The notes under the pieces: generated by a model | The model's database searches: none | Seen by the model: only the letters and a program-made list of their open reading frames with translations | Told to the model about the DNA's origin: nothing | Made by a program: the position numbers and the translations under genes | Part shown: one piece after another, positions 29,739-43,117 of the stretch | Layout of the letters: each line of letters begins with the position of its first letter | Position numbering within the stretch: the first letter of the stretch is position 1 | Assembly (NCBI RefSeq): GCF_900099815.1 | Contig: NZ_FNCW01000006.1 | Coordinates: 62,001-126,000, forward strand | Reading direction: 5' to 3' | DNA length: 64,000 nucleotides | Source of the DNA: Psychroflexus sediminis | GTDB taxonomy: Bacteria > Bacteroidota > Bacteroidia > Flavobacteriales > Flavobacteriaceae

Positions 29739-32700
29739 TTATTCATCCAAAAACGGCTGTACTTTTTCTTTGATTTCCTCTACAATACCGGGGTCCAGCA
29801 AGGTAGATACATCTCCGATCTGATCCCCTTCATCAGAAGAAATCTTTCTCATGATACGCCTCATGATTTTACCACTTCGTGTTTTAGGCAATCCGGATAC
29901 AAAATGTATGCGGTCTAACTTGGCTATCGGACCAATTTTGCTTGCAATGAGCTGATTGATTTCCTTACTCAGATTCTCTTTATTTCTGGATTCACCATCG
30001 GTTTTTAAAATTAAAAATCCAGCAAGAGCATTTCCTTTTACCTGATGAGGGAAGCCGATGATAGCGGACTCGGCCACGGCAGGATGCTCATTGATGGCAT
30101 CTTCTATAGGCGCGGTGCCCAAATTATGCCCGGAAACAATAATCACATCATCTACTCTACCGGTGATTCTGTAATAGCCTACTTCATCCCTGAGCGCCCC
30201 GTCCCCAGTAAAATAGACATCCTTAAAGGCTGAGAAATACGTGTCTTTATAGCGCTGATGATTGCCATAAACCGTTCTGGCCATACTTGGCCAGGGATGC
30301 TTGATGCAAAGTTTACCAGAGACCGAATTACCCTGTATTTCATTTCCTTGATCATCCATCAGTGAAGGCTGAATTCCCGGCAAAGGCAGGGTTGCATAGG
30401 TGGGTTTGGTCGGGGTCACAAACGGAATTGGAGAAATCATAATTCCACCCGTTTCTGTTTGCCACCAGGTATCCACAATTGGACATTTCTTTTTACCGAT
30501 GTTTTCATTATACCAGTTCCAGGCTTCCTCGTTGATAGGCTCACCAACACTTCCGAGAACTTTTAAAGACGACAAATCGTATGTATTTACAAATTCGATA
30601 TCTTGTTTAGCCAAAGCTCGAATAGCCGTTGGAGCAGTATAAAACTGATTCACTTTGAATTTATCTATTATATCCCAAAACCTACCAAAATCGGGGTAAG
30701 ACGGAACACCTTCAAACATGAGTGTTGTAGCACCATTCAAAAGTGGGCCGTACACTATATAGGAATGTCCTGTTATCCAGCCGATATCAGCCGTACACCA
30801 GTATACATCATTCTCCTGGTACTGAAAAACATTTTTGAATGAAAATGCCGTGTATACCATGTATCCCGCAGTGGTATGCACCATACCTTTCGGGGTTCCG
30901 GTAGATCCTGAAGTGTATAGAATGAAAAGCATGTCCTCTGCATCCATGACTTCTGCTTCACACTTATCGCCTACCTGCTTTAATTCTTCGTGAAGCCAGA
31001 CATCGCGATTTTCAAGCATATCCACTTTAGAGAAGGTACGTTTGGCAACCAAAACGCAGTCTACTGAAGGTGTAGATTCCAAAGCTTCATTCACAATGCT
31101 CTTTAAATCAATGCTTTTGGAACCTCTGTAAGATCCGTCTGAAGTAATTACCATCCTGCAGTCTGAATCATTGATTCTTGAAGCCAAAGCAGATGCAGAA
31201 AATCCGGCAAAAACCACAGAATGCACTGCTCCTATTCTGGCACAGGCTAAAGTAGCAATGGCCAGTTCGGGAATCATCGGTAAGTAAATGCAAACCCGAT
31301 CTCCCTTCTGAACTCCATTTTTCTTAAGCACATTTGCCATTTTATTGACCCGCTTCGACAAGTCATTGTAACTGATATGAAGTGCTTCTTCATCTGGATT
31401 ATTCGGTTCCCAAATAATTGCCGTTTTATTACCTCTGGTTTTTAAATGCCTGTCAATAGCATTTTCAGTAATATTGAGCTGAGCCCCTTCAAACCAGCTC
31501 ACCTCTGCTTTTTCAGGATTCCATTTCAATACCGAATCCCATTTCCTTTTCCATTCAAAATTTCTTTCAGCAATGGTGTTCCAAAAATTCTCCGGATCGT
31601 TTTGAGAAATCCTATACACATCCATATACTTAGCAAGTGAATCGATGTTATAATAGCTTTTAGTCAGTGCTTTTAAAGACTGAGTTACCTGATCTTTATT
31701 TTTACTGAAAGCACCGATTTTCTGCTGGCTAAAGATTTCAATAATCTCACTGATTACCATCGGGTCTTCGATAGTTGAAGGAAGTTTATACGCCTCTCCC
31801 GCTACAAGTTTCCTTAAAGTTCTTCTTAAGGTCTTACCACTTCTGGTTTTCGGCAGGCGCTTGACTATAACTACATTCTTCAAGGCAGCAATAGCTCCAA
31901 TTTTATCTCTGACTAACTGAATAATTTCAGTTTGCATTTTATAGGATTCATAGCCTTCTTCACCAGTTTTGGGGACGACAATGGCTAGCGGTACTTCTCC
32001 CTTCAGTTCATCCTGTAATCCAACAACAGCACATTCAGCAACAGACGGGTGCTGAGAAACAACTTCTTCGAGAGCTGCTGTAGAAAGTCTGTGACCAGAC
32101 ACATTGATGACATCGTCAATTCTTCCAGTGATAAAGACATAACCCTCTTCATCGATATACCCACCATCACCGGAGAAGTAATAGCCCGGAAATTTGCTTA
32201 GATACCCGTTTTTATAGCGTTCATGGTTATTCCAAAGCGTTTGCATGAATCCTGGGGGGAGCGGTAATTTGGAACAAATATAACCTTCAGTATTGGCAGG
32301 TAGGGTTTCGCCGTCTTCAGAAAGAATCGCCAGATCATAACCCGGGACGGGTTTTCCTGCAGAACCAGGTTTTACAGGCAAAGCATCCATTCCCATGTAA
32401 TTAGCAACAATAGACCAGCCCGATTCTGTCTGCCACCAGTGGTCAATCACAGGAACCTTCAGATGATCTTCGGCCCACTTCAAAGTGGTTTCATCACATC
32501 GCTCTCCAGCCAGAAATTGATATTTTAAGGAAGAAATATCATGCTTTTTGATAAACTCTCCTTTTGGATCTTCTTTTCTGATGGCTCTGAAAGCTGTTGG
32601 AGCGGTAAACATGACATTTACTTTATGGTCTTCAATCACTCTCCAGAACGCCCCGGCATCAGGGGTTTTAACGGGTTTCCCTTCATATATAATCGTTGTA

Positions 32701-33599
32701 TTTCTATGAATCATGGGGCCATAAACAATATAACTATGTCCAACCACCCAGCCCACATCCGATGCAGCCCAGAACACATCGCCGGGTTTGGTTCCATAAA
32801 TATTCTCCATAGAAAATTTTAATCCAACCGCGTACCCCCCCGTATCTCTTACCACTCCTTTGGGCGATCCAGTAGTTCCAGAGGTGTAAAGAATATAGGA
32901 AGGATCTTTAGATTTTAAAGCTACTGCCGGAGTGGGTTCAGCCTTTTCCATCAATTCTGTATAATCGATATCGTAAGGCTTCTCCTCAAATTCAACTCCC
33001 AGTTTTCTATTGAACACCACAACTTTTTCTACCTTGTGCTTAGCTTTTTCAATGGCTTCATCCACCATGGGCTTATAGGCTATGAGTCGATCCACTTCAA
33101 TTCCGGAAGTCGCCGTCATGATCACTTTGGGCTTGGCATCGTCTATTCTCATCGCCAGTTCATCTGGTGCAAAACCTCCGAAAACCACAGAATGTATCGC
33201 CCCGATTCTGGCGCAGGCCAGCATGCTGAACAACGAATGAGAAATCATTGGCATGTAAATAATGACCCGATCCCCTTTTTCAACACCTAAGGCTTTTAGG
33301 CCGCCGGCAAGTTTGGATACCTTCTCCAAAACCTCATTATAGGTGTATTTCACCTGCTTCTGTCTGACCGCAGAATCATAAATAAGGGCAATTTCATCCC
33401 CATATCCATCTTCCACGTGTTGATCTATGCACAAATAACTCAAGTTGGTTTCTCCATCAGGAAACCAGTGGTATATCCCTTCTGAGGTTTGTTCCAAAGC
33501 TTTGGTTGGCGCTTTGAACCACCTTATATTTTCAGAGGCTTTCATCCAGAATTCTTCAGGATGCTCAATACTTTTTTGATAGACTTCTTTATAATTCAT
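29739..33599 (-). CDS. Fused double acyl-CoA synthetase: PrpE/ACSS3-like half plus acetyl-CoA synthetase half
   Basis: One uninterrupted 1286-residue frame contains two complete AMP-forming short-chain acyl-CoA synthetases. Half 1 (about 1-615) has YTSGTTGSPKG (238-248), HWWQTESGW (387-395) and the catalytic PKTRSGK (K589); the SGW ending resembles propionate-activating PrpE/ACSS3. Half 2 (about 655-1286) has YTSGSTGTPKG (895-905), TWWQTETGG (1044-1052) and PKTRSGK (K1244), as in acetyl-CoA synthetase Acs. In Acs and PrpE this Lys is the site of regulatory acylation. A linker of about 40 residues (SQQKIGAFSKNKDQ) joins them. Both active sites look intact. Normal family length is 620-660, so this is a true fusion. 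Last gene of the operon, 11 bp after the response regulator. Confidence 0.93.
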   Translation of the reverse strand: MNYKEVYQKSIEHPEEFWMKASENIRWFKAPTKALEQTSEGIYHWFPDGETNLSYLCIDQHVEDGYGDEIALIYDSAVRQKQVKYTYNEVLEKVSKLAGGLKALGVEKGDRVIIYMPMISHSLFSMLACARIGAIHSVVFGGFAPDELAMRIDDAKPKVIMTATSGIEVDRLIAYKPMVDEAIEKAKHKVEKVVVFNRKLGVEFEEKPYDIDYTELMEKAEPTPAVALKSKDPSYILYTSGTTGSPKGVVRDTGGYAVGLKFSMENIYGTKPGDVFWAASDVGWVVGHSYIVYGPMIHRNTTIIYEGKPVKTPDAGAFWRVIEDHKVNVMFTAPTAFRAIRKEDPKGEFIKKHDISSLKYQFLAGERCDETTLKWAEDHLKVPVIDHWWQTESGWSIVANYMGMDALPVKPGSAGKPVPGYDLAILSEDGETLPANTEGYICSKLPLPPGFMQTLWNNHERYKNGYLSKFPGYYFSGDGGYIDEEGYVFITGRIDDVINVSGHRLSTAALEEVVSQHPSVAECAVVGLQDELKGEVPLAIVVPKTGEEGYESYKMQTEIIQLVRDKIGAIAALKNVVIVKRLPKTRSGKTLRRTLRKLVAGEAYKLPSTIEDPMVISEIIEIFSQQKIGAFSKNKDQVTQSLKALTKSYYNIDSLAKYMDVYRISQNDPENFWNTIAERNFEWKRKWDSVLKWNPEKAEVSWFEGAQLNITENAIDRHLKTRGNKTAIIWEPNNPDEEALHISYNDLSKRVNKMANVLKKNGVQKGDRVCIYLPMIPELAIATLACARIGAVHSVVFAGFSASALASRINDSDCRMVITSDGSYRGSKSIDLKSIVNEALESTPSVDCVLVAKRTFSKVDMLENRDVWLHEELKQVGDKCEAEVMDAEDMLFILYTSGSTGTPKGMVHTTAGYMVYTAFSFKNVFQYQENDVYWCTADIGWITGHSYIVYGPLLNGATTLMFEGVPSYPDFGRFWDIIDKFKVNQFYTAPTAIRALAKQDIEFVNTYDLSSLKVLGSVGEPINEEAWNWYNENIGKKKCPIVDTWWQTETGGIMISPIPFVTPTKPTYATLPLPGIQPSLMDDQGNEIQGNSVSGKLCIKHPWPSMARTVYGNHQRYKDTYFSAFKDVYFTGDGALRDEVGYYRITGRVDDVIIVSGHNLGTAPIEDAINEHPAVAESAIIGFPHQVKGNALAGFLILKTDGESRNKENLSKEINQLIASKIGPIAKLDRIHFVSGLPKTRSGKIMRRIMRKISSDEGDQIGDVSTLLDPGIVEEIKEKVQPFLDE

Positions 33600-33610
33600 A
33601 ACACTATAGT

Positions 33611-33985
33611 TTAGGGTTTGTGATTTAATAATTCACTTACAGTATTCAGGAGTTTTTTCATAGAAAACGGTTTTTTGATGTATGCTTTAGCGCCAAGATT
33701 CAAGGCTTTCTGAACATCGCTTTCCTTTTGTTTCGCACTTATAATTACAGTTTGCGTAGAGGCTTTGAGTGCGTTGTGCTCTCGCAAATGCTGCAGGACT
33801 TCATATCCATCTACTTTAGGCATCATAATATCCAAAATCACCAGGTCTGGCAAGAGTTTTTCTGCGAGCGCAATCGCCTCCTCCCCGTCTCGGGCAATAA
33901 AAACCTCATAATCATTTTTTCTTAAGGTATACTCCAGTGCCATGATTATGTTAGGCTCGTCATCTACAAGTAAGATCTTTTTCAT
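33611..33985 (-). CDS. Single-domain (CheY-like) response regulator
   Basis: A 124-residue receiver domain with no output domain. The acidic pocket is LLVDDEPN (D8, D9), the phosphoacceptor is D52 in LVILDIMMPKVDGYE, S83 is the switch residue in VIISAK, and K105 lies in IKKPF. Its start overlaps the end of the upstream kinase gene by 4 bp, which marks it as the kinase's partner. Without a DNA-binding domain it must act through another protein, further phosphotransfer or protein contact; the well-studied acetate-switch regulator CrbR of Vibrio, by contrast, carries an HTH domain. Confidence 0.93.
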   Translation of the reverse strand: MKKILLVDDEPNIIMALEYTLRKNDYEVFIARDGEEAIALAEKLLPDLVILDIMMPKVDGYEVLQHLREHNALKASTQTVIISAKQKESDVQKALNLGAKAYIKKPFSMKKLLNTVSELLNHKP

Positions 33986-36678
33986 AGCTTTCGTTTTGGT
34001 AATTTCACAATGAATTCTGCTCCTGTTTCAAGGCCTGGATCAGCATAAATCTCGCCGCAGTGCATCTGCACAATCTGTTTACAGATCGCTAATCCAAAAC
34101 CACTACCAACAGGTTTTTTGAAGGTCTGATTTTTGGACTGATAGAATTTTTTAAAAATCAAATCAAAGTCCCCTTCTGGTATTCCCTTGCCGTTGTCCCT
34201 GATTTTAATCGTAATTTCTTCTGAATTTTCCTCTAAAAGCACTTCTATCCTCCCCTCGTTTTCTGAAACAAATTTTAAAGAATTGGAAAGTAAGTTAGTA
34301 AACACCTGAAGCATTTTGCTGTAATCAAATTCGGCTTCGATTTGAGTTTTATTCTCAAAATTGACCTCTATGTGTTTTCGTTCAGCGATACTGCTTATTC
34401 CATCAATAGCATCTTGGATACACGTATTCAAGGCTTCGGACGTTATATTCAATTCATCTCTTCCTGAAGCCATTTTTTCCAAATCCAGAATATCGTTGAT
34501 CAGTGCATTGAGGCGTTCTGTATCCTGAATAATATTGTTCAGGAATTTTTGACGAAGTTCAAATGGCATATCATCATCTTCTGTCAATACTTCAGAACTT
34601 GCCTTGATGGAAGTGATTGGAGTTTTGAGCTCATGCGCTACCGTATCCAAAAAGTCATCCTTAAGCTGGTCCTGGAGTTTAAGCTCTTCATTCGCAGATT
34701 TCAAATCTGAAGTGAGTTTAATCAGCTTTTGAGACTGTTCTTCCAGTGACTTGTTGACGGAAATGGTTTCTTTGTTTTCCTCCAATATTTTTAAAACTTC
34801 AACCAAAGACACCGGCTTTTCTTTGGCCACATTGGAAATTAAGATTTTAGCAGAAGCGCTTCCCACAGCTCCCGTAAGCAATCGTTCTGAGAAATTGATA
34901 AATCTGGCATCTGCCAACTTTTCTTCCGGATTTACCTGGTAGCGTTTTCTAAAGACGTTCAAAGCTTTCTTGGCTTTGGCCTCCCCAAGGAAACGAATCA
35001 ATATATTCTGGATATCCTCTACGTAGGCTTCACCTTTCCAGACGTAAGCATTTTCTTTGAGTTCCACGACTTTCTCACTGTTTACGAACATTTCACCATA
35101 GTTTCTCTCCCGGTAATTTCCTTTTTTGACAACTGATAAAACCAAATAAGCTCCCGTATTGAGCAATAAACTCCAGTATAAGGCATGGTTAACCGGATTC
35201 AGTAAGTCAACACCAAAAAGCGCATAAGGTTTAAGCAGGTCGATACCGTATAATCCTTGTTCTGCAAATGAATTTTGACTCAAAACATTTTCAGTAATAA
35301 AGGGTAGCAGATACGTAAACCCAACTATAAGCATACCGAGTATAATACCCACTTTTGAACCTAAAGCAGAGCCTCTGTTCCAAAACATGCCTATGAAAAA
35401 ACTAGGAGCTAACTGGGCGATGATCAAAAATGAAATAAGCCCGATTGAAAATAAAGAAACTTTGGGGTCAAACAGGGCATAAAGTAAATAAGCCAGAATT
35501 ATAGAACTAAATACACATAGGCGTCTTATGTTTTTAATGGTTTTTTCGTTCTTAAACGACTTGCTTTGGGTCAGATTTTTTATAAATCCGTAAGGTATAA
35601 TAAGGTTATTGCTCAACATCGTGGACAGCGCCACCGTGGAAACCACAACCATAGAAATCACTGCTGAAAGACCTCCCAGAAAAACTAAAATAGCCAACCA
35701 ATACTCCTCAAAATATAAAGGAATAAGAAGCGTAAAATAGTCGGCTTTGGACTGATCTCCTAAAATCAGCATTCCTCCCCAGGCGATAAAAATGACAAAT
35801 ACATTAAATAATAAAAGGTAAAGCGGAAAAAACCAAATCGAGGTTTTTAGCTGTTTTCGATTAGTAAATTCAACTACAGAAGCCTGAAACTGGCGTGGCA
35901 ACAGAAAAATCGCCAAAAAAGAAAGCGCTACACTAAAATACCAATTGATGCCGCCACTTAAACCCTTGATGGTACTTAACTCATTCAAATCCAAACCCAA
36001 CTTAGCCTGCTTATAAATATCTGATGTGCCGTCAAACACAAAGTAGGTGACGTAAACTCCAACGATGAGAAAGAAGCTTAACTTCAATACAGATTCAACA
36101 GCAATAGAAAACATAACGCCTGTTCTGTGCTTGGAAGCATCCAGGGCTAAGGTTCCAAAAAAGGAGGCAAAGATGGCCAAAATTAAAGCGATGTAAAAGG
36201 TAGAATCCGTTATCACCGATGAACCCTCAATCCCAAGACTTGAAGTAGAAACAATTTCAAAGGTTTCAGAAATCGCTTTGAGTTGAAGAGAGATATAAGG
36301 AATAATACTCGCAGCGCAAACCAGAGTGACCAAAGCTCCCAGAGATCTGCTGTTACCATATCTAAGAGAGATAAAATCGGCAATACTCGAAACCTTATAC
36401 ACTTTGGATAGCTGAATTATTTTCTTCAATAAAACAATCCACAATGGCGCAGCGATGATAGGTCCGAGATAAATCGTAAGAAACTCAACTCCGGACTTTG
36501 CTGCCATGCCTACACTGCCATAATAGGTCCATGCCGAGCAGTACACCGCAAGGGATAAAGCATATACAACCGGATGTGACACCAGTTTTGAGCCTTTATT
36601 TTTTTCAGCAAAAAAAGCGATGAGAAACAAAATCCCCAAGTAGACAAAAATGAGTGCTATGAGTGCGGTTTTACTCAT
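33982..36678 (-). CDS. Histidine kinase with sodium:solute symporter sensor domain (CrbS/CbrA-like)
   Basis: An 898-residue protein. Residues about 1-530 form a sodium:solute symporter-type membrane domain of about thirteen segments (YCSAWTYYGSVGMAA, IADFISLRYGNSRSLG, GLSAVISMVVVSTVAL). Residues about 540-640 are a cytoplasmic linker, then a coiled segment. HisKA has H682 in VAHELKTPITS, and the ATPase domain has LLSNSLKF, DNGKGIPEG and GSGFGLAI. SSS-fused kinases such as CrbS control acetyl-CoA synthetase genes and CbrA controls carbon and nitrogen use in gammaproteobacteria. Here the kinase is encoded beside an acetate-type symporter and ACS, which makes acetate or propionate sensing a strong inference. 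It overlaps both flanking genes by 4 bp. Confidence 0.92.
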   Translation of the reverse strand: MSKTALIALIFVYLGILFLIAFFAEKNKGSKLVSHPVVYALSLAVYCSAWTYYGSVGMAAKSGVEFLTIYLGPIIAAPLWIVLLKKIIQLSKVYKVSSIADFISLRYGNSRSLGALVTLVCAASIIPYISLQLKAISETFEIVSTSSLGIEGSSVITDSTFYIALILAIFASFFGTLALDASKHRTGVMFSIAVESVLKLSFFLIVGVYVTYFVFDGTSDIYKQAKLGLDLNELSTIKGLSGGINWYFSVALSFLAIFLLPRQFQASVVEFTNRKQLKTSIWFFPLYLLLFNVFVIFIAWGGMLILGDQSKADYFTLLIPLYFEEYWLAILVFLGGLSAVISMVVVSTVALSTMLSNNLIIPYGFIKNLTQSKSFKNEKTIKNIRRLCVFSSIILAYLLYALFDPKVSLFSIGLISFLIIAQLAPSFFIGMFWNRGSALGSKVGIILGMLIVGFTYLLPFITENVLSQNSFAEQGLYGIDLLKPYALFGVDLLNPVNHALYWSLLLNTGAYLVLSVVKKGNYRERNYGEMFVNSEKVVELKENAYVWKGEAYVEDIQNILIRFLGEAKAKKALNVFRKRYQVNPEEKLADARFINFSERLLTGAVGSASAKILISNVAKEKPVSLVEVLKILEENKETISVNKSLEEQSQKLIKLTSDLKSANEELKLQDQLKDDFLDTVAHELKTPITSIKASSEVLTEDDDMPFELRQKFLNNIIQDTERLNALINDILDLEKMASGRDELNITSEALNTCIQDAIDGISSIAERKHIEVNFENKTQIEAEFDYSKMLQVFTNLLSNSLKFVSENEGRIEVLLEENSEEITIKIRDNGKGIPEGDFDLIFKKFYQSKNQTFKKPVGSGFGLAICKQIVQMHCGEIYADPGLETGAEFIVKLPKRKL

Positions 36679-36958: not shown

Positions 36959-38746
36959 TTAATGATCTGAGGCTTCTCCTGCTCCACTAGGAATTCTTAC
37001 ATTTTCTACCATCTCCTGAACATCCAGAGGTGGCTCTGGAGTAAACTTACTTATCACGATAGATACCATAAAGTTGACCAGCATGGCCACCGATCCGAAA
37101 CCTTCCGGAGAAATGCCAAACCACCAGTCTGCAGGAGTACCGCCCCCAAAGAAGTCAAATTTAAACTTCATCATATAAAATATCATCAGTGAAATTCCAA
37201 CGACCATACCAGCCACAGCACCTTCTTTATTCATGCGTTTGTAGAAAATTCCTAAAATAATAGCAGGAAAGAAGGAAGCCGCTGCCAGACCAAAAGCCAG
37301 GGCAACAACGGCTGCAACAAATCCAGGAGGATTAATTCCGAAATACCCTGCAACAACCACAGCAACAACAGAAGCTAAACGAGCAGCAACCAGCTCGCCT
37401 TTGTCTGTAATTTTTGGATATACCATTTTCTTGATCAAATCGTGAGAGACGGAAGAGGAAATCACCAGTAAAAGTCCGGCAGCAGTAGAAAGTGCAGCAG
37501 CTAAACATCCTGCAGCCACCAAAGCGATGACCCAGTTTGGTAAATTGGCGATTTCCGGATTAGCCAATACCATAATATCCCGGTCTACGTACAATTCGTT
37601 TTTGTTCTCTGAAGGGTTCTCTACGATTCTTTCGCCACTTTCACCTCTCTGTTTATCAGTAAACAAGGGAATCCCTGTTAGAGCATCCCCGCCTTCTTTA
37701 GCTTTACCCAGATATTGAATTTTTCCGTCAGAATTCTTATCCGTCCACGCCAAAAGGCCTAAACCTTCCCAGGTAGTAAACCATTCGGGCATCTCAGTAT
37801 AATTTTTTTCATTTACGGTCTGTAGCAAATTCAGTTTACCAAAAGAGGCTACAGCAGGAGCTGTGATATAAAGAATACCTATAAACAGCAAAGCATATCC
37901 GGCTGATTTACGCGCATCTTTAACCCGCTTTACAGTAAAGAATCTTACGATAACATGGGGCAGACCAGCAGTTCCAACCATTAAAGCCAAAGTGATAGCG
38001 AAAACATCTATCAGGTCTTTAGAGCCTTCGGTATAGGCTGTGAAGCCTAATTCCTGGCTCAAACCATCTAGTTTATCCAGCATGTAGGTGTCGGGCTGAC
38101 TGGCCAGCGTATCTCCCATGCCAAACATAGGAATAGGATTGCCGGTGACCTGGAAAGAAATAAAAATAGCCGGAACCAGAAAAGCGAAAATCAACACGCA
38201 GTACTGAGCGACTTGCGTGTAGGTAATGCCTTTCATACCGCCCAGGACAGCGTAGAATAAAACGATAATCATCCCGATAATAACGCCGGTTTCAATTTCA
38301 ACTTCCAGGAATCTTGAAAAGACAACCCCTACCCCTCGCATCTGACCCGCGATATAAGTGAAAGAAACAATTAAGGCACAAATAACAGCTACTGAACGCG
38401 CTACTTTTGAATAATACCGGTCTCCTATAAAATCAGGGACGGTAAATTTTCCGAATTTCCTTAAATAAGGTGCCAATAATAAAGCTAAAAGCACAAAACC
38501 ACCAGTCCAGCCCATTAAAAAAACCGAGCCATCGTAACCCATAAAAGAAATAATTCCTGCCATGGATATGAAAGAAGCTGCAGACATCCAGTCGGCTGCG
38601 GTGGCCATACCATTTGCCAGAGGCGAAACACCACCTCCTGCGACATAAAATTCTTTAGTTGAACCAGCACGGCTCCAGATCGCTATTCCAATGTAGATAG
38701 CAAATGAAACGCCGACGAAAATATAAGTAAGTGTTTGAGAATCCAT
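36959..38746 (-). CDS. ActP-like sodium:solute (acetate/short monocarboxylate) symporter
   Basis: A 595-residue inner-membrane symporter. GGGVSPLANGMATAADWMSA near residue 37 is the characteristic SSS substrate/sodium-site helix of the ActP group, followed by FTVPDFIGDRYYSK, GTAGLPHVIVRFFTVKRVKDA and ALSTAAGLLLVISSSVSHD. It has about thirteen hydrophobic segments and a long extracytoplasmic loop at about 310-395 containing an EF-hand-like DKNSDGKIQYLG. The family imports acetate, propionate, pyruvate or similar anions. A DUF4212 small subunit gene precedes it by 6 bp and a porin comes before that, so it should form the inner-membrane step of an acetate/propionate uptake path. Confidence 0.92.
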   Translation of the reverse strand: MDSQTLTYIFVGVSFAIYIGIAIWSRAGSTKEFYVAGGGVSPLANGMATAADWMSAASFISMAGIISFMGYDGSVFLMGWTGGFVLLALLLAPYLRKFGKFTVPDFIGDRYYSKVARSVAVICALIVSFTYIAGQMRGVGVVFSRFLEVEIETGVIIGMIIVLFYAVLGGMKGITYTQVAQYCVLIFAFLVPAIFISFQVTGNPIPMFGMGDTLASQPDTYMLDKLDGLSQELGFTAYTEGSKDLIDVFAITLALMVGTAGLPHVIVRFFTVKRVKDARKSAGYALLFIGILYITAPAVASFGKLNLLQTVNEKNYTEMPEWFTTWEGLGLLAWTDKNSDGKIQYLGKAKEGGDALTGIPLFTDKQRGESGERIVENPSENKNELYVDRDIMVLANPEIANLPNWVIALVAAGCLAAALSTAAGLLLVISSSVSHDLIKKMVYPKITDKGELVAARLASVVAVVVAGYFGINPPGFVAAVVALAFGLAAASFFPAIILGIFYKRMNKEGAVAGMVVGISLMIFYMMKFKFDFFGGGTPADWWFGISPEGFGSVAMLVNFMVSIVISKFTPEPPLDVQEMVENVRIPSGAGEASDH

Positions 38747-38752
38747 AGTTTT

Positions 38753-39025
38753 TTATTTATCGTATCCGTATTTTTTATCTAATTTGTTCATTAACCTCAC
38801 GTAAACGAAAATCAAAATGATGAATACGTAAATAGAACCTTGCTGTGCAAACCAAAAACCAAGTTTGAAGCCTCCGATTTGAAATTGATCCAGCCAGTCT
38901 TTGAAGAGGATTCCGGCTCCATAGGAAACCAGAAACCAAATGGGGAGGAGTATGGCCAAATATTTAAGGTTTTCCTTCCAGTAAGCCGTAGCTTTTTTTT
39001 GTTTTTTGTCGTTTTGTTTATCCAT
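38753..39025 (-). CDS. DUF4212 small subunit of sodium:solute symporter
   Basis: A 90-residue protein recognisable as DUF4212: a charged N-terminus (KKATAYWKENLKYLAILLP), a first membrane segment ending LVSYGAGILF, the conserved FKLGFWFAQQGSIYVFIILI containing the second, and a charged tail (LMNKLDKKYGYDK). The family is almost always encoded just before an SSS-type symporter gene, as here (6 bp spacing), and is thought to be its partner subunit. It starts 2 bp after the porin stop. Confidence 0.93.
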   Translation of the reverse strand: MDKQNDKKQKKATAYWKENLKYLAILLPIWFLVSYGAGILFKDWLDQFQIGGFKLGFWFAQQGSIYVFIILIFVYVRLMNKLDKKYGYDK

Positions 39026-39027
39026 AA

Positions 39028-40248
39028 TTACAAGTATATCATAGCCTGAAGACTAAGGGTTTTCTGATTGAAATTTCCAAAGGATTGAGATTTATATTCT
39101 AAGGTTAATTTTGAATTGTGACCGCTGAAGTAAGCATTCGCGCCTATGCCTAAAATAGTTTGATTGTCATCTACAGCATCAAAGCTTTGTAAAGCATAAG
39201 ACAGGTAAGGCTGAAATTTGACAGCCTGCTTTTGACCGGGAATCACTACACCCGTGTGGCCGTATAGCATAGCTCCCGATCCATAAGGACCGAATAGATA
39301 ATTCTCTCCGTAATCGTTATTCTGATAGACCGCGTAGGCGGTCAATGCCGCATTATTATTTCCTAAAGGAGCATCATAAAACACATCAAAGGCATACAGC
39401 ATAACATCCTCTCCCGCTAAGCTTCCTTGGTTCTGAATAGCACTGCCATTGGGATGAGCAAAGAATCCGGTGCCTAGCGTCAGTACCTTTTTACCGCCTA
39501 AGTAGGACCCGACTTTGTAAGGAAGATAACTGGATTCTTTATCAAAAAGGTGGTAGGTAAAATAGCCGGCATAATTGTAGAGTGCATTGGCAGAGCCTAG
39601 ATTGGCAAGTCCTGTATAGGTCGCCTGATCCTGAGTTGGAAGCCTGCTGTCCAGTCCGTTGGCAATAGCATTGTTCACGGCTACCTGGTATTGAAATTTA
39701 CCCAGATTCCCTTTGGCAAAAACACCGATATGCCTTGCAAACTGGTCACTTAAGCCCAGGGTTGACCAGGACGACCTGTTATTGTCCAAAGTCAGCATGT
39801 TCAAAGTGGATTGATTGTTTAACCGCGAAATGCCATTGAAATAGTGAAGACCGCCTCCAAGCGTGAGTTCTTCACCCAAATTGTATTGTACCCACGCATC
39901 GTGCAAAAAAACCTGGGCTGCATCTCCGGTACCCACTGGATTCATGTTTTGAGAACTCAGGTTATTGAGTCCGATATGAGACACGATGGTAAAATCCTTT
40001 GAGATTTGTCCGATAAAAAGGAGACGGGCTCTTCTGAGCAGGAAATTGGTCTGACTTTCATTTTCCGGAACATCATCCTGGTAATTCATCTGGAACTGCG
40101 CCCATGAGATGATTCTTAAAAATTTATCAGGCTGATCTTCGTTAAACTGAATTTTGAAACCTCCTCTATAATTAGGAGATCCTTGTGAAAATGCATGATT
40201 ACTTACTAAAGCTATAATACATGCGAAAAGTGTAATAAAATACCTCAT
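39028..40248 (-). CDS. Outer-membrane porin of the acetate module
   Basis: A 406-residue exported protein: signal peptide MRYFITLFACIIALVSNHAF (cleaved after FSQ), then a barrel with many Tyr/Phe-rich strands. The segment NFLLRRARLLFIGQISKDF near residue 65 is typical of the phosphate-selective-porin (OprP/OprO-like) superfamily, whose members pass anions, and the C-terminus ends in the aromatic strand TLSLQAMIYL. As first gene of the tightly packed operon it probably admits acetate-like anions across the outer membrane. Membership is fairly clear; selectivity is inference. Confidence 0.85.
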   Translation of the reverse strand: MRYFITLFACIIALVSNHAFSQGSPNYRGGFKIQFNEDQPDKFLRIISWAQFQMNYQDDVPENESQTNFLLRRARLLFIGQISKDFTIVSHIGLNNLSSQNMNPVGTGDAAQVFLHDAWVQYNLGEELTLGGGLHYFNGISRLNNQSTLNMLTLDNNRSSWSTLGLSDQFARHIGVFAKGNLGKFQYQVAVNNAIANGLDSRLPTQDQATYTGLANLGSANALYNYAGYFTYHLFDKESSYLPYKVGSYLGGKKVLTLGTGFFAHPNGSAIQNQGSLAGEDVMLYAFDVFYDAPLGNNNAALTAYAVYQNNDYGENYLFGPYGSGAMLYGHTGVVIPGQKQAVKFQPYLSYALQSFDAVDDNQTILGIGANAYFSGHNSKLTLEYKSQSFGNFNQKTLSLQAMIYL

Positions 40249-40273
40249 CAGGTGACAATTTTTTAAATATTTA

Positions 40274-40299
40274 TGCTATTTAATGCTAATAACTTGCTA
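40274..40299 (-). promoter_or_regulatory. Three helically phased TAGCA repeats in the operon leader
   Basis: Read on the minus strand, TAGCA occurs three times at offsets of 11 and 10 bp, 26-51 bp before the porin ATG. One-turn spacing puts all copies on the same DNA face, as in many operator arrays. No convincing TAnnTTTG promoter was found nearby. Confidence 0.35.
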
Positions 40300-40360
40300 C
40301 GAACATGACATTAATTCCTTGTTAAATAAAAAATAATATATATTTCTGTAAAATATATAG

Positions 40361-40774
40361 TTATTCTTTAAAGCGCTCCCATTTAATCACCATAAATTTA
40401 TCTCCGAGTTCTGTAACGATCATGCCAGAACCCCTGGTGTTTTCTTCAGATGAAAAGTACTTACCCAGCTCTGTCTGACTCAATATTTTATAGGTGGGGT
40501 GAACGTCTGAATTCTGGACTTTTTGAATGTTATACTTTCGCACCCAGTTCATCACACTCACGTGAGAAATTCCCAAAATACGCTCAATTTCTCGGTAAGA
40601 AAGACCCTCTAAGTAAAGCTGAAGAGCCTTGGTTACATAATACTGATCTATTCTTTTTCCCAGTTTATTTACTGTAAAAAAATAGTTACAGGCTTTGCAC
40701 TTATAGCGTTGGCGTTCATTAACAATACCGCTTTTCACGATGTTATTGGACTGACATTGAGGACAGAATTTCAT
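40361..40774 (-). CDS. IS1 InsA-like zinc-ribbon/HTH protein, probable domesticated regulator
   Basis: A 137-residue protein from the ATG at 40774 (an upstream in-frame ATG adds twelve unrelated residues). The N-terminal zinc ribbon has two CxxC pairs (MKFCPQCQ and YKCKACNYFF) like the InsA part of IS1. A helix-turn-helix follows, with YLEGLSYREIERILGISHVS near residue 56. The C-terminal 60 residues, ending GMIVTELGDKFMVIKWERF, are not transposase-like, no DDE catalytic domain follows and no terminal repeats flank it. It is therefore read as a transposase-derived DNA-binding protein. Lying 112 bp upstream of the acetate operon on the same strand, it is the best candidate regulator there. Confidence 0.75.
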   Translation of the reverse strand: MKFCPQCQSNNIVKSGIVNERQRYKCKACNYFFTVNKLGKRIDQYYVTKALQLYLEGLSYREIERILGISHVSVMNWVRKYNIQKVQNSDVHPTYKILSQTELGKYFSSEENTRGSGMIVTELGDKFMVIKWERFKE

Positions 40775-40862
40775 ATATACATATTTTGCATAAATATATC
40801 TATTTAGCAATAAAAATGACTGTCTGAGATTAGATTCTTGTTGATTTTTTGAATCTGAACAT

Positions 40863-40924: not shown

Positions 40925-41641
40925 TTAGATAAGATCAAATATAGAGTCCACCGCCGGATAGCGTTCCACAGTAAAACCTTCAGCATGTTCGGTGTTAATG
41001 AATCTTCCTAAGTTCCTGGCTCTATAGGTGATGCTGTCAAAAAAATTGGAACTGGAAATAGGGGTTTGAGGTTCTTTGCTTTCTATATCGTAAAACTGAG
41101 ACTTATAGGCTTTGATACATTCTATTTTCTTGTCCATAAACCCGGTTATATCCACCACGATATCGGGCTCAATATCAAACCATTGTATATAATGATACAC
41201 ATGCTTTGGTCTCCATTCCCTTTGAGAATTGCCTTCGCAAATCGTTTCTATTTTTTTTAAACCGCTCAGGAAGCAGGAATCGCTAACGAGCTGACTTCCC
41301 TTCCCGTGGTCTATATGCCGGTCACGGATGGCATTGCACAAAACAACATCCGGCCTGTATTTCCTCAGGATTTTAATGACCTCGAGTTGATGAGCGGTAT
41401 TATTCGTAAAAAACCCATCGCTAAACTCTAAGTTTTTTCGCATGCTTACGCCAAGAATTTCGGCTGCGTTCCTGGCTTCTTCATCCCTAATTTCAGCCGT
41501 ACCTCGCGTTCCTAACTCCCCGCGGGTTAAATCTAAAATCCCCACCTTCTTTCCATTACTGATTTCTTTAGCCAGTGTCCCCGAACAACTCAGTTCTACA
41601 TCATCGGGATGTGCTCCAATAGCCAGTATATCTAATTTCAT
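40925..41641 (-). CDS. bshB1: Bacillithiol biosynthesis deacetylase BshB1
   Basis: A 238-residue LmbE-family zinc deacetylase that removes the acetyl group from GlcNAc-malate in bacillithiol synthesis. The zinc site starts AIGAHPDDVELSCSGT (H11, D14), followed by LTRGELGTRGT, RDRHIDHGKGSQLV with the later His, and WFDIEPDIVVDITGF. This pattern and length match BshB1 better than other LmbE deacetylases. BSH is the low-molecular-weight thiol of many flavobacteria. It starts 3 bp after the NhaC gene stop and is co-transcribed with it. Confidence 0.93.
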   Translation of the reverse strand: MKLDILAIGAHPDDVELSCSGTLAKEISNGKKVGILDLTRGELGTRGTAEIRDEEARNAAEILGVSMRKNLEFSDGFFTNNTAHQLEVIKILRKYRPDVVLCNAIRDRHIDHGKGSQLVSDSCFLSGLKKIETICEGNSQREWRPKHVYHYIQWFDIEPDIVVDITGFMDKKIECIKAYKSQFYDIESKEPQTPISSSNFFDSITYRARNLGRFINTEHAEGFTVERYPAVDSIFDLI

Positions 41642-41644
41642 AAT

Positions 41645-43117
41645 TTATTTTTTTCTCAATTGTCTTATCTTAATGTCGAATGCAGCAAAAAATAGGGTGA
41701 CGAAAGGACTCAAATAATTAAAGATCGCATAGAAAAAGTAATCCACTACCGGCACACCCAAAACCCCACTATGGTAAGCCCCGCAGGTATTCCAGGGGAC
41801 TAGTACTGAAGTGACTGTACCCGAGTCCTCTAAAGTTCTACTTAGGTTTTCCGGTGCTAAGCCTTTCTTTTCATAGGCTTTTGAAAACATTTTTCCAGGA
41901 ACCACAATGGCAAGGTACTGATCGGAAGCGGTAAGGTTTAAAGCCAGACAACTGGTGACTGTGCTGAAAAACAAGCCAAAAGTGGACGTAAACAGATTCA
42001 GAAGTGCTTCGCTAATTCGCTCCAGGGCGCCGATAGCATCCATAATGCCACCAAAGACCATAGCACAGATAATCAGCCAGATTGTGCCTAACATGCCGTA
42101 CATCCCACCAGCTGAAAATAAACCCTGTAAAATTGCATTTTCTGTAGGAATCACAATAGCCACCGTAATCGAATTCATGATGCCTTTATAAGCCGTTTCA
42201 AAAGTGAGTGTATCTCCTCCGCCAATGAGCTGAACCAGATCAGGCTGAAAAATAAGGGCGGCAACTGCCGCTAACAGCGTACCTAAAAGCAAGGCGATGA
42301 GCGGTGGTGTTTTCTTTACGATTAAAAAAATAACCAAAACCGGAACCACAAATAACCAGCCAGATACATTGAAAGAAGCATCTATACTATTTAGAATTTC
42401 GTTTGGATTGGTTTGCCCGGAGGTGTCAAGATTTAAACCAATAATGACAAACACAAGCAGGGTAATGATAATGGTAGGTACGGTCGTAATGGTCATGTAT
42501 CTGATGTGGGTAAACAAATCTGTCCCTGCCATGGCCGGCGCGAGGTTGGTCGTATCACTCATGGGCGATAATTTGTCTCCGAAATACCCTCCGGACAATA
42601 CCGCTCCGGCGGTCATCGCAATAGATACTCCAAGCGCTTCTGCAATACCGATTAAGGCAATACCAACGGTGGCTGAGGTCGTCCAGCTGCTTCCTGTGGC
42701 AATGGATATGACCGAACATATAATCACACAGGCTGCAAGAAATATAGTTGGATTCAGAATTTGTAAGCCATAATAAATCATGGTCGGTATAATTCCGCTT
42801 AGCAGCCAGGTTCCTGCCAGGGCTCCCACCATCAGTAAAATTAAAATGGGCTCGGTGGTAGATTTTATGTTCTTGGCGACATCCTCTATCATGGTTTCAA
42901 ACCTGGCGCCTTTGGAAACACCCACAATCGCTGCTACAGCACCCCCCATCAGCAGTATGAACTGATTAGAGCCTGCAAGCGAATCATCTCCATAAATAAA
43001 AACATTATAAGCCAACATACCTATAAGCACTATCACTGGTATTAAAGCCTGCCAGATACTCAGTTTAATTTTGGTTCCGGATGGGTCTTCTTCAGGTACA
43101 TTCAGGGGATCACTCAT
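41645..43117 (-). CDS. nhaC: Na+/H+ antiporter NhaC family
   Basis: A 490-residue inner-membrane protein with about eleven hydrophobic segments. The conserved core SGGYFGDKLSPMSDTTNLAP near residue 175 plus GSSWTTSATVGIAL and LEDSGTVTSVLVPWNTCGAY are signatures of the NhaC antiporter family, which exchanges sodium and protons for pH and salt homeostasis (some members exchange malate/lactate). The start ATG is clear. It lies 3 bp upstream of bshB1; no functional tie between the two is obvious. Confidence 0.92.
   Translation of the reverse strand: MSDPLNVPEEDPSGTKIKLSIWQALIPVIVLIGMLAYNVFIYGDDSLAGSNQFILLMGGAVAAIVGVSKGARFETMIEDVAKNIKSTTEPILILLMVGALAGTWLLSGIIPTMIYYGLQILNPTIFLAACVIICSVISIATGSSWTTSATVGIALIGIAEALGVSIAMTAGAVLSGGYFGDKLSPMSDTTNLAPAMAGTDLFTHIRYMTITTVPTIIITLLVFVIIGLNLDTSGQTNPNEILNSIDASFNVSGWLFVVPVLVIFLIVKKTPPLIALLLGTLLAAVAALIFQPDLVQLIGGGDTLTFETAYKGIMNSITVAIVIPTENAILQGLFSAGGMYGMLGTIWLIICAMVFGGIMDAIGALERISEALLNLFTSTFGLFFSTVTSCLALNLTASDQYLAIVVPGKMFSKAYEKKGLAPENLSRTLEDSGTVTSVLVPWNTCGAYHSGVLGVPVVDYFFYAIFNYLSPFVTLFFAAFDIKIRQLRKK

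Follow-up and report, generated by a model that had tools for sequence, protein, structure and literature searches.

The locus described here raises the question of why a protein resembling a transposon product stands directly in front of an operon for the uptake and use of acetate. The window, that is, the whole stretch of 64,000 nucleotides analyzed on contig NZ_FNCW01000006.1 of Psychroflexus sediminis, carries a small gene that we call P. Downstream of P lie, in this order and all on the minus strand, genes for a porin-like protein, a DUF4212 protein, a symporter, a histidine kinase, a response regulator (RR) and an acetyl-CoA synthetase (ACS). The substrate of the operon is probably acetate, because the operon includes ACS. 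According to the excerpts of the literature available to us, InsA binds the inverted repeats of IS1 through a zinc finger and a helix-turn-helix (HTH) and represses the promoter overlapping the left repeat, IRL (PMC12428005). An earlier note on the window had proposed that P is an accessory protein of IS1 domesticated as a dedicated regulator. Here we describe P, its flanks and its neighbors, and weigh what P may do. The features are collected in Table 1.

Table 1. Features of the P locus, in coordinates of the window
Feature	Coordinates	Strand	Basis
P (137 aa; putative domesticated InsA-like protein with zinc ribbon, HTH and InsA-frame tail)	40361..40774	-	ORF, profile matches, conservation, alignment, AlphaFold2
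P zinc ribbon, residues 4-31 (C4, C7, C26, C29)	40682..40765	-	profile matches, conservation, model
P helix-turn-helix, residues 44-84	40523..40645	-	conservation, comparison with IS1 relatives, model
P C-terminal tail, residues 91-134, homologous to the InsA-frame tail	40373..40504	-	conservation, model, alignment
Left operator-like site, tandem TGCTAAATAGATATATTTATGCAAAATATGTATA abutting the P start codon; candidate IRL-derived operator	40776..40809	-	motif search
Right operator-like site, inverse orientation, between P and the porin-like gene; candidate operator of the acetate operon, IRR-derived	40319..40360		flank comparison
Outer-membrane porin-like protein, 406 aa (ExtI-like, below cut-off)	39028..40248	-	profile match
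DUF4212 symporter small subunit	38753..39025	-	profile match
VC_2705-family sodium/solute symporter	36959..38746	-	profile match
Symporter-like histidine kinase (SSF, HisKA, HATPase_c; CrbS/CbrA-like architecture)	33982..36678	-	Pfam
REC-only response regulator, 124 aa	33611..33985	-	profile match
Acetyl-CoA synthetase, 1286 aa, two fused synthetase units	29739..33599	-	profile match

P is a conserved, single-copy zinc-ribbon and HTH protein

The ATG at 40774 is the plausible start for P and opens a frame of 137 aa ending at 40361. We preferred it to the TTG start in the list of open reading frames, because the frame from the TTG would cross the conserved motif upstream. The double CxxC ribbon and the HTH that the earlier note had recognized as InsA-like are both borne out. 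Across 115 distinct coding sequences, the four cysteines of the pairs C4/C7 and C26/C29 are conserved at 99-100%, and G16, Q22, R23, R61, E62, S70, H71, W77, E102, L103, G117, K126 and W132 are invariant. In Pfam, the HTH passes the thresholds of HTH_28 and HTH_23. In NCBIfam, two zinc-ribbon domains of transposases also exceed their cut-offs, NF050000 (43.8 bits, cut-off 28) and NF048018 (44.3 bits, cut-off 27), which places the N-terminus of P with the zinc ribbons of the IS1/IS1595 type. Two further models stay below threshold, Zn_ribbon_InsA of Pfam (PF03811; 20.1 bits, threshold 26.1) and transpos_IS1 (83 bits, cut-off 100). In line with the earlier note, no DDE domain was found in P by searches with Pfam and NCBIfam profiles.

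The AlphaFold2 model of P (pLDDT 86.2, pTM 0.62, from 48 sequences) comprises a ribbon hairpin with strands at residues 12-18 and 21-26, three HTH helices and a beta-alpha-beta-beta tail. Fold comparison gave no PDB match at E <=0.001; the best matches were Lrp/AsnC proteins with a TM score of about 0.26, too weak for use.

P is under strong purifying selection. Of 14 pairs, five have a saturated dS; in the other nine, its dN/dS ratio does not exceed 0.043. Multiple dispersed copies, which the earlier note would have taken as evidence against its proposal, do not occur: P is present once in this genome, where the two other matches reach 33% over 42 aa.

Descent of P from InsA

The nearest mobile relatives of P are IS1 elements on plasmids. 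Identity to P is 42% for that of the archaeal genus Methanomethylovorans, 36% for that of Methylobacter and 35% for that of Tenacibaculum; a further IS1 relative with 40% identity is found in genome G286. The recognition helix of P reads S-H-V-S/T-V/I-x-x-W, near the S-[HN]-V-[SA]-[VI] of these elements. P aligns without a change of frame to the InsA frame of the IS1 relatives, through 'GSG' and beyond, with one single-residue gap before the tail. Hence, the tail that had been called a distinct, non-transposase C-terminus is indeed diverged, but it still aligns to the InsA-frame tail. Against the InsA-frame tails of L229 (Methylobacter) and of L228 and L262, the latter two nearly identical to each other, it scores 53, 60 and 61, and none of 500 shuffles scores as high. 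The comparison with L177 is weak (31/500 shuffles) and that with L230 is not significant (73/500).

What P has lost is the transposase part of the element. The first catalytic Asp of IS1 falls on a variable position of P (T101 in the window). The frameshift run of IS1 (A7-A8) is present in all six relatives checked, whereas 113 of 115 P loci have no run of A7 or longer in the homologous segment; A6C occurs in 13 of the 115. Both insB and the InsB/DDE part reached by -1 frameshifting are absent from P, whose frame ends at 137 aa. We rejected an origin of P as a truncated transposase (transframe InsAB'), since its tail is in the InsA frame and not in the -1 frame. Likewise, we rejected the reading of 'VTELGDKF' in P as a lost DDE strand corresponding to 'VIELDEMH', because the alignment sets 'ILSQTELGKYF' on the 'V-ELDEMHTYI' strand.

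In the tree, a branch with support 100/99 splits the 35 P rows from the 19 IS rows; the tree is compatible with one recruitment of P. Long branches are present, and the nearest IS row is not settled by the tree. Altogether, the sequence comparisons indicate that the ancestor of P was the InsA of an IS1-family element, a DNA-binding repressor.

Searches for IS1 relatives in viral contigs, phages and Flavobacteriaceae returned two degraded copies, L260 and L261, whose ends resemble those of L229, and two short matches; in 199 Flavobacteriaceae there were 21 unsorted matches. The Bacteroidota IS1 copies L166-L172 have other recognition helices and no clear end repeats.

P is linked to the acetate operon and tracks its kinase

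P ends 112 bp before the porin-like gene (gap 40249-40360), on the same strand, as the earlier note had stated. The kinase of the operon has HisKA and HATPase_c domains over the cut-off and an SSF match at residues 37-448 that falls below it (20.5 bits, cut-off 22.8). No STAC domain was among its Pfam matches at E <=1, in a Pfam set that may lack a STAC model. The two units of ACS are visible as two stretches each of ACAS_N, AMP-binding and AMP-binding_C, and ACS matches over about 1280 aa recur in several related operons (e.g., L132 and L144-L146). On its other side, P is directly preceded by a PIG-L deacetylase gene and an antiporter gene that, from a reading of its sequence, we take to be NhaC-like (40925-43117, minus strand). 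These two neighbors are found in the closest Psychroflexus relatives and not at other loci.

A scan of GTDB genomes yielded 478 relatives of P, of which the best 80, a set biased toward close relatives, were analyzed. In 79 of these best 80 of 478 loci, genes of the operon lie less than 10 kb downstream of P and share its strand; in the sole exception, L050, the contig stops 375 bp after P. Among the best 80 of 478, 69 loci have more than 7.5 kb of sequence downstream of P, and there the kinase is present in 68 and the RR in all 69. An absence of linkage in relatives, which would have spoken against the earlier proposal, is thus not what the loci show.

We also asked how P is distributed relative to the acetate genes, a check that the earlier note had called for. 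Among 100 relatives, a set that includes the genome of the window, P occurs in 30 and the kinase in 31; 28 genomes have both, two P only, three the kinase only, and 67 neither. Four of the five discordances are contig ends: in the three kinase-only loci (L121-L123) the contigs stop before the place of P, and in the P-only locus L120 the contig is cut inside the symporter gene. In the fifth, G076 (locus L119), P, RR and ACS are present and no kinase is found at E 1e-30. DUF4212 occurs in 46 of the 100 relatives, 20 of them without P and the kinase. Because DUF4212 often occurs without P or the kinase, we conclude that P tracks the kinase and not the symporter.

A similar picture emerged from a phylum sample of 392 genomes, for which a completeness of at least 90% was requested and P was counted at E<1e-40. 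P is found in 30 and the kinase in 41 of these genomes (both 28, P only two, kinase only 13, neither 349). Nine genomes with weaker P matches (E 1e-25 to 1e-6) were left out of this count; six of these matches fit the IS1 model, and the remaining three are in G245, G417 and G473. All 13 kinase-only genomes lie outside the class of the window's genome, Bacteroidia in GTDB, and are listed as 'same phylum'. The class boundary of P is not clean, because P occurs once outside the class, in the P-only genome G382; its P contig is cut inside the symporter gene, and the search of its genome revealed no kinase. The second P-only genome, G261 (locus L128), has P with a diverged end, the tandem motif described below with a period of 20 and ACS about 2 kb away; neither a kinase in the genome nor an RR in the 19-kb stretch was found. 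The Fisher P values for the co-occurrence of P and kinase (3.6e-19 and 1.4e-30) ignore relatedness and are descriptive only.

The response regulator of the operon consists of a receiver

P might be the output half of a split two-component system, in which the phosphorylated REC-only RR switches P, as an activator or by derepression, and kinase, RR and P together replace a pair such as CrbS/CrbR. P lies in the same neighborhood as the RR and the kinase and is co-inherited with the latter. The RR has an open frame of 119-125 aa in 65 of the 69 loci with long downstream sequence, and profile searches found no DNA-binding domain other than that of P in the operon proteins scanned. The locus L119, which keeps P, RR and ACS, also fits such a partnership. 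However, RRs of receiver size occur as well in P-less kinase-RR loci outside the class, and searches of G261, which has P and its motif, revealed neither a kinase nor a local RR. Of the 13 P-less kinase loci, the ORF lists of eight were read: RR frames of 122-164 aa are present in five (L155, L156, L162, L164 and L165), the RR match lies outside the kept ORFs in L153 and L161, and L160 has no RR match. The two of these RRs scanned against Pfam (L162 and L165) have a receiver domain only. We regard this split-output reading, which takes up a suggestion of the earlier note that P may be the DNA-binding partner of the RR, as possible and hold it tentatively. Directly upstream of the kinase, two of the P-less loci carry an ArsR-family gene (L164:8269-8607 and L165:8119-8448) and L160 carries an XRE-peptidase M78 gene (L160:11400-12890).

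A tandem motif abuts the start of P

Directly before the start codon of P, the motif TGCTAAATTnATATA occurs twice with a period of 19 bp. The tandem is present in 110 of 115 distinct loci, with a period of 19 in 109 of them and of 20 in L128, and it lies one base from the start codon in 50 of the 110. The five misses comprise three loci with too little upstream sequence and two, L129 and L130, with a partial motif in place. In L131, ACS is divergent from P, so that the left site sits between the two genes; L129 shows the same arrangement with a partial left site.

We searched the 100 relatives with a degenerate pattern, allowing up to two mismatches. The pattern matched once in each of the 30 P-positive genomes and in none of the 70 P-negative ones, and the reversed pattern used as a control matched once across all 100. 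In 29 of the 30 genomes the match lies directly upstream of P; in G096, tandem and P are at different contig ends. Because the loci used to define the pattern overlap with these genomes, its presence beside P is partly circular, whereas its absence elsewhere is not. Among the 100 genomes, the tandem motif abutting the P start is a new element exclusive to P-positive genomes. The data give no support for a wider P regulon, as single-unit matches are scattered over P-positive and P-negative genomes alike (58/100) and no further site stands out for the single-unit pattern in the 100 genomes. The same single-unit match, TGCTAATTTTGTATA, is found near the first bases of two contigs of G000 (G000:C9:59-73 and G000:C29:87-101) and inside a third (G000:C14:143217-143231), and it may be part of another repeated element.

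The tandem resembles the ends of an IS1 element. The ends of the Tenacibaculum IS1 read GGCATTGCTAATTTAATATAG and GGCATTGCTAATTCAATAAAG, and the former scores 20.9 bits on the matrix of the P motif (about 5e-5 per random 30-mer). Moreover, 16 bases of this terminal repeat, TTGCTAATTTAATATA, recur without mismatch upstream of P in 13 locus records from seven distinct places. Other IS1 ends score lower: 7.1 bits for the right end of Tenacibaculum, 6.3 for the left end of G286 and 5.0 for L232. The right end of G286 is weak (0.019 per random 30-mer), and the ends of L229 and of the Methanomethylovorans element L228 are not significant on the P motif (0.03-0.59 per random 30-mer); L262, whose ends are like those of L228, is not among the scored ends. 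A correlation between recognition helix and IS1 end sequence is suggestive only, because an IS1 from Microcystis, which belongs to a different helix group, scores 6.7 bits as well, level with some of the relatives. The outermost GGCA is missing: none of 110 outer motif units has GGCA within the 6 nt before it.

Given its position, the flanking motif could instead serve the promoter or the translation of the P gene, with P acting elsewhere. In favor of this, the motif lies directly at the start codon, and RNA folding of the 45 nt upstream of the start is somewhat more stable than in shuffled sequences (mean z -1.6 over 112 loci). This reading is improbable, since a related sequence follows the stop codon in inverse orientation, the motif is similar to an IS1 terminal repeat, and the tandem stands beside no other gene in the 100 genomes.

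An inverse copy of the motif follows the stop of P

The earlier note had reported no inverted ends around P, and here it was mistaken. In addition to the tandem upstream (40776-40809), there is an inverse copy from 40360 down to 40319, starting immediately behind the stop codon. Of 115 loci, 77 have an inverse site no more than 40 nt from the stop, compared with 0.5 in shuffles and with 10 loci for the forward orientation, and in 60 of the 115 it starts at the first base after the stop. The right site is degenerate, and the regular expression behind these counts was composed after inspection of the data. With the weight matrix derived from the upstream motif, at least 7 bits are reached after the stop by an inverse site in 41 of 115 loci and by a forward one in two, compared with about five in shuffles; the right site of the window itself scores below 0. 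L130 has a forward, not an inverse, tandem after P. As single-stranded DNA, both sites of the window form hairpins (z -2.2 and -3.7). A conserved RNA structure after the P stop is not supported on average (45 nt, mean z -0.10 over 115 loci). Compared with an active IS1, P is flanked by end-like inverse motifs but lacks GGCA tips and dispersed copies.

That P is a passive IS remnant lying beside the operon by chance is exceedingly improbable. It is recognizable as an IS1 InsA, as such a remnant would be, but it is under purifying selection, is present as one strong copy in each of the 30 P-positive relatives, and keeps its place and motif.

In the P-porin gap, a GTTCGT block occurs within the next 110 nt after the stop-side site in 38 of 115 loci, compared with 0.8 in shuffles. 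In the window, GTTCGT is found at 40299-40304 on the minus strand, downstream of the inverse site. The TAnnTTTG promoter box of Bacteroidetes is not enriched in this gap (2/115 loci, 9.4 in shuffles), and for this reason the promoter of the operon could not be located. These data bear on whether P may activate the operon, the right site lying upstream of the porin promoter and RNA polymerase being recruited there, while the P gene itself is repressed. The inverse site at the start of the gap, with the GTTCGT block further on, could be an upstream activating site. However, the characterized relative, InsA, is a repressor, and without an enriched TAnnTTTG box the porin promoter has no located position relative to the site. 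Activation of the operon by P is thus possible, if somewhat less than probable.

Discussion

In this study, we found that a gene for an InsA-like protein is conserved in front of an acetate operon, between sequences that resemble the ends of IS1. We consider it likely that P is a domesticated InsA, kept as a local transcription factor of the acetate operon and acting through the IS1-end-like sites that flank its gene. Our confidence is slightly lowered because the right site of the window misses the weight-matrix threshold and because P occurs once outside the class. The proposal of the earlier note, domestication of InsA as a dedicated operon regulator, is strongly supported by sequence evidence, namely the single branch of the tree, the dN/dS ratios, the linkage to the operon, the co-occurrence with the kinase and the private flanking motif.

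In our proposed mechanism, P would be an IS1-family InsA that was recruited to serve the acetate-uptake operon as its local transcription factor. It most likely binds DNA as its ancestor did, at a site resembling the IS1 terminal repeat, TTGCTAAWTTnATATA. The tandem copy at the start of P would provide autoregulation, as InsA does at the IS1 promoter, and the inverse copy past the stop, before the downstream operon, would place that operon under the control of P. P should not transpose, as the frameshift run and the first catalytic Asp are lost together with the insB frame and the outermost GGCA of the ends. Because of the homology to InsA, we infer that both flanking sites are bound by P, which would thereby repress its own gene and control the operon beyond the right site; repression, rather than activation, is our default guess. 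The kinase and the REC-only regulator would modulate P, and this co-inherited pair is the obvious route from acetate to P. A more far-reaching version is rather unlikely: a whole IS1 would have been frozen as a cassette, the repressor becoming the output of the receiver-only two-component system and the two ends the autoregulatory and operon operators, so that a split response regulator made from a transposon would control acetate uptake throughout a bacterial class.

Compared with InsA of IS1, P has kept the zinc ribbon and HTH, the InsA-frame tail, an identity of 35-42% to the nearest IS1 elements and end-like repeats beside the gene. In contrast, it lacks insB, the GGCA tip and, in nearly all loci, the A7 run; it is present in one copy, is fixed beside an operon and has a tandem end unit.

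CrbR belongs to the LuxR-type regulators and carries a DNA-binding domain itself. The P operon differs in that its RR, of 124 aa, lacks an output domain, and no DNA-binding protein besides P was found in the operon. The two systems share a symporter-fused histidine kinase linked to ACS; in the available portions of the sources, the kinase of CrbS/CrbR (MxtR/ErdR) in Vibrio and Pseudomonas is tied to acs and acetate uptake (PMC7918813, PMC5436829, PMC5715377).

To our knowledge, transposon proteins acting as transcription factors are well documented in eukaryotes and rare in bacteria. TldR descended from TnpB and is a transposon-related bacterial protein serving as a dedicated regulator, as P would be. 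The two differ, as TldR is RNA-guided and P is a zinc-ribbon and HTH protein from the repressor of a DDE element. In the parts of the literature available to us, TldR, an RNA-guided transcription factor related to the transposon protein TnpB, is the nearest bacterial transposon-related regulator seen (PMC13418256). According to similar excerpts, eukaryotic transposase-derived factors such as FHY3/FAR1 are likewise domesticated transposon DNA-binding domains used as transcription factors. P differs in being bacterial, in belonging to a single operon and to the IS1 family, and in having end-like repeats still beside its gene. The consulted portions of openly licensed literature, on domesticated InsA and bacterial transposase-derived regulators and on acetate regulation and single-domain regulators in Bacteroidetes, contain no description of P, which is weak evidence of absence.

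P and its probable binding sites were apparently captured together, leaving a regulator between what look like relics of old transposon ends. P is probably a dedicated regulator of acetate uptake and use in many Bacteroidota, and for many Flavobacteria and their relatives it provides a specific candidate regulator of acetate uptake with a defined candidate operator. It also opens to experiment the question of how a response regulator with nothing but a receiver could reach DNA. Finally, P serves as a warning that proteins resembling an 'IS1 family transposase' can be conserved operon regulators.
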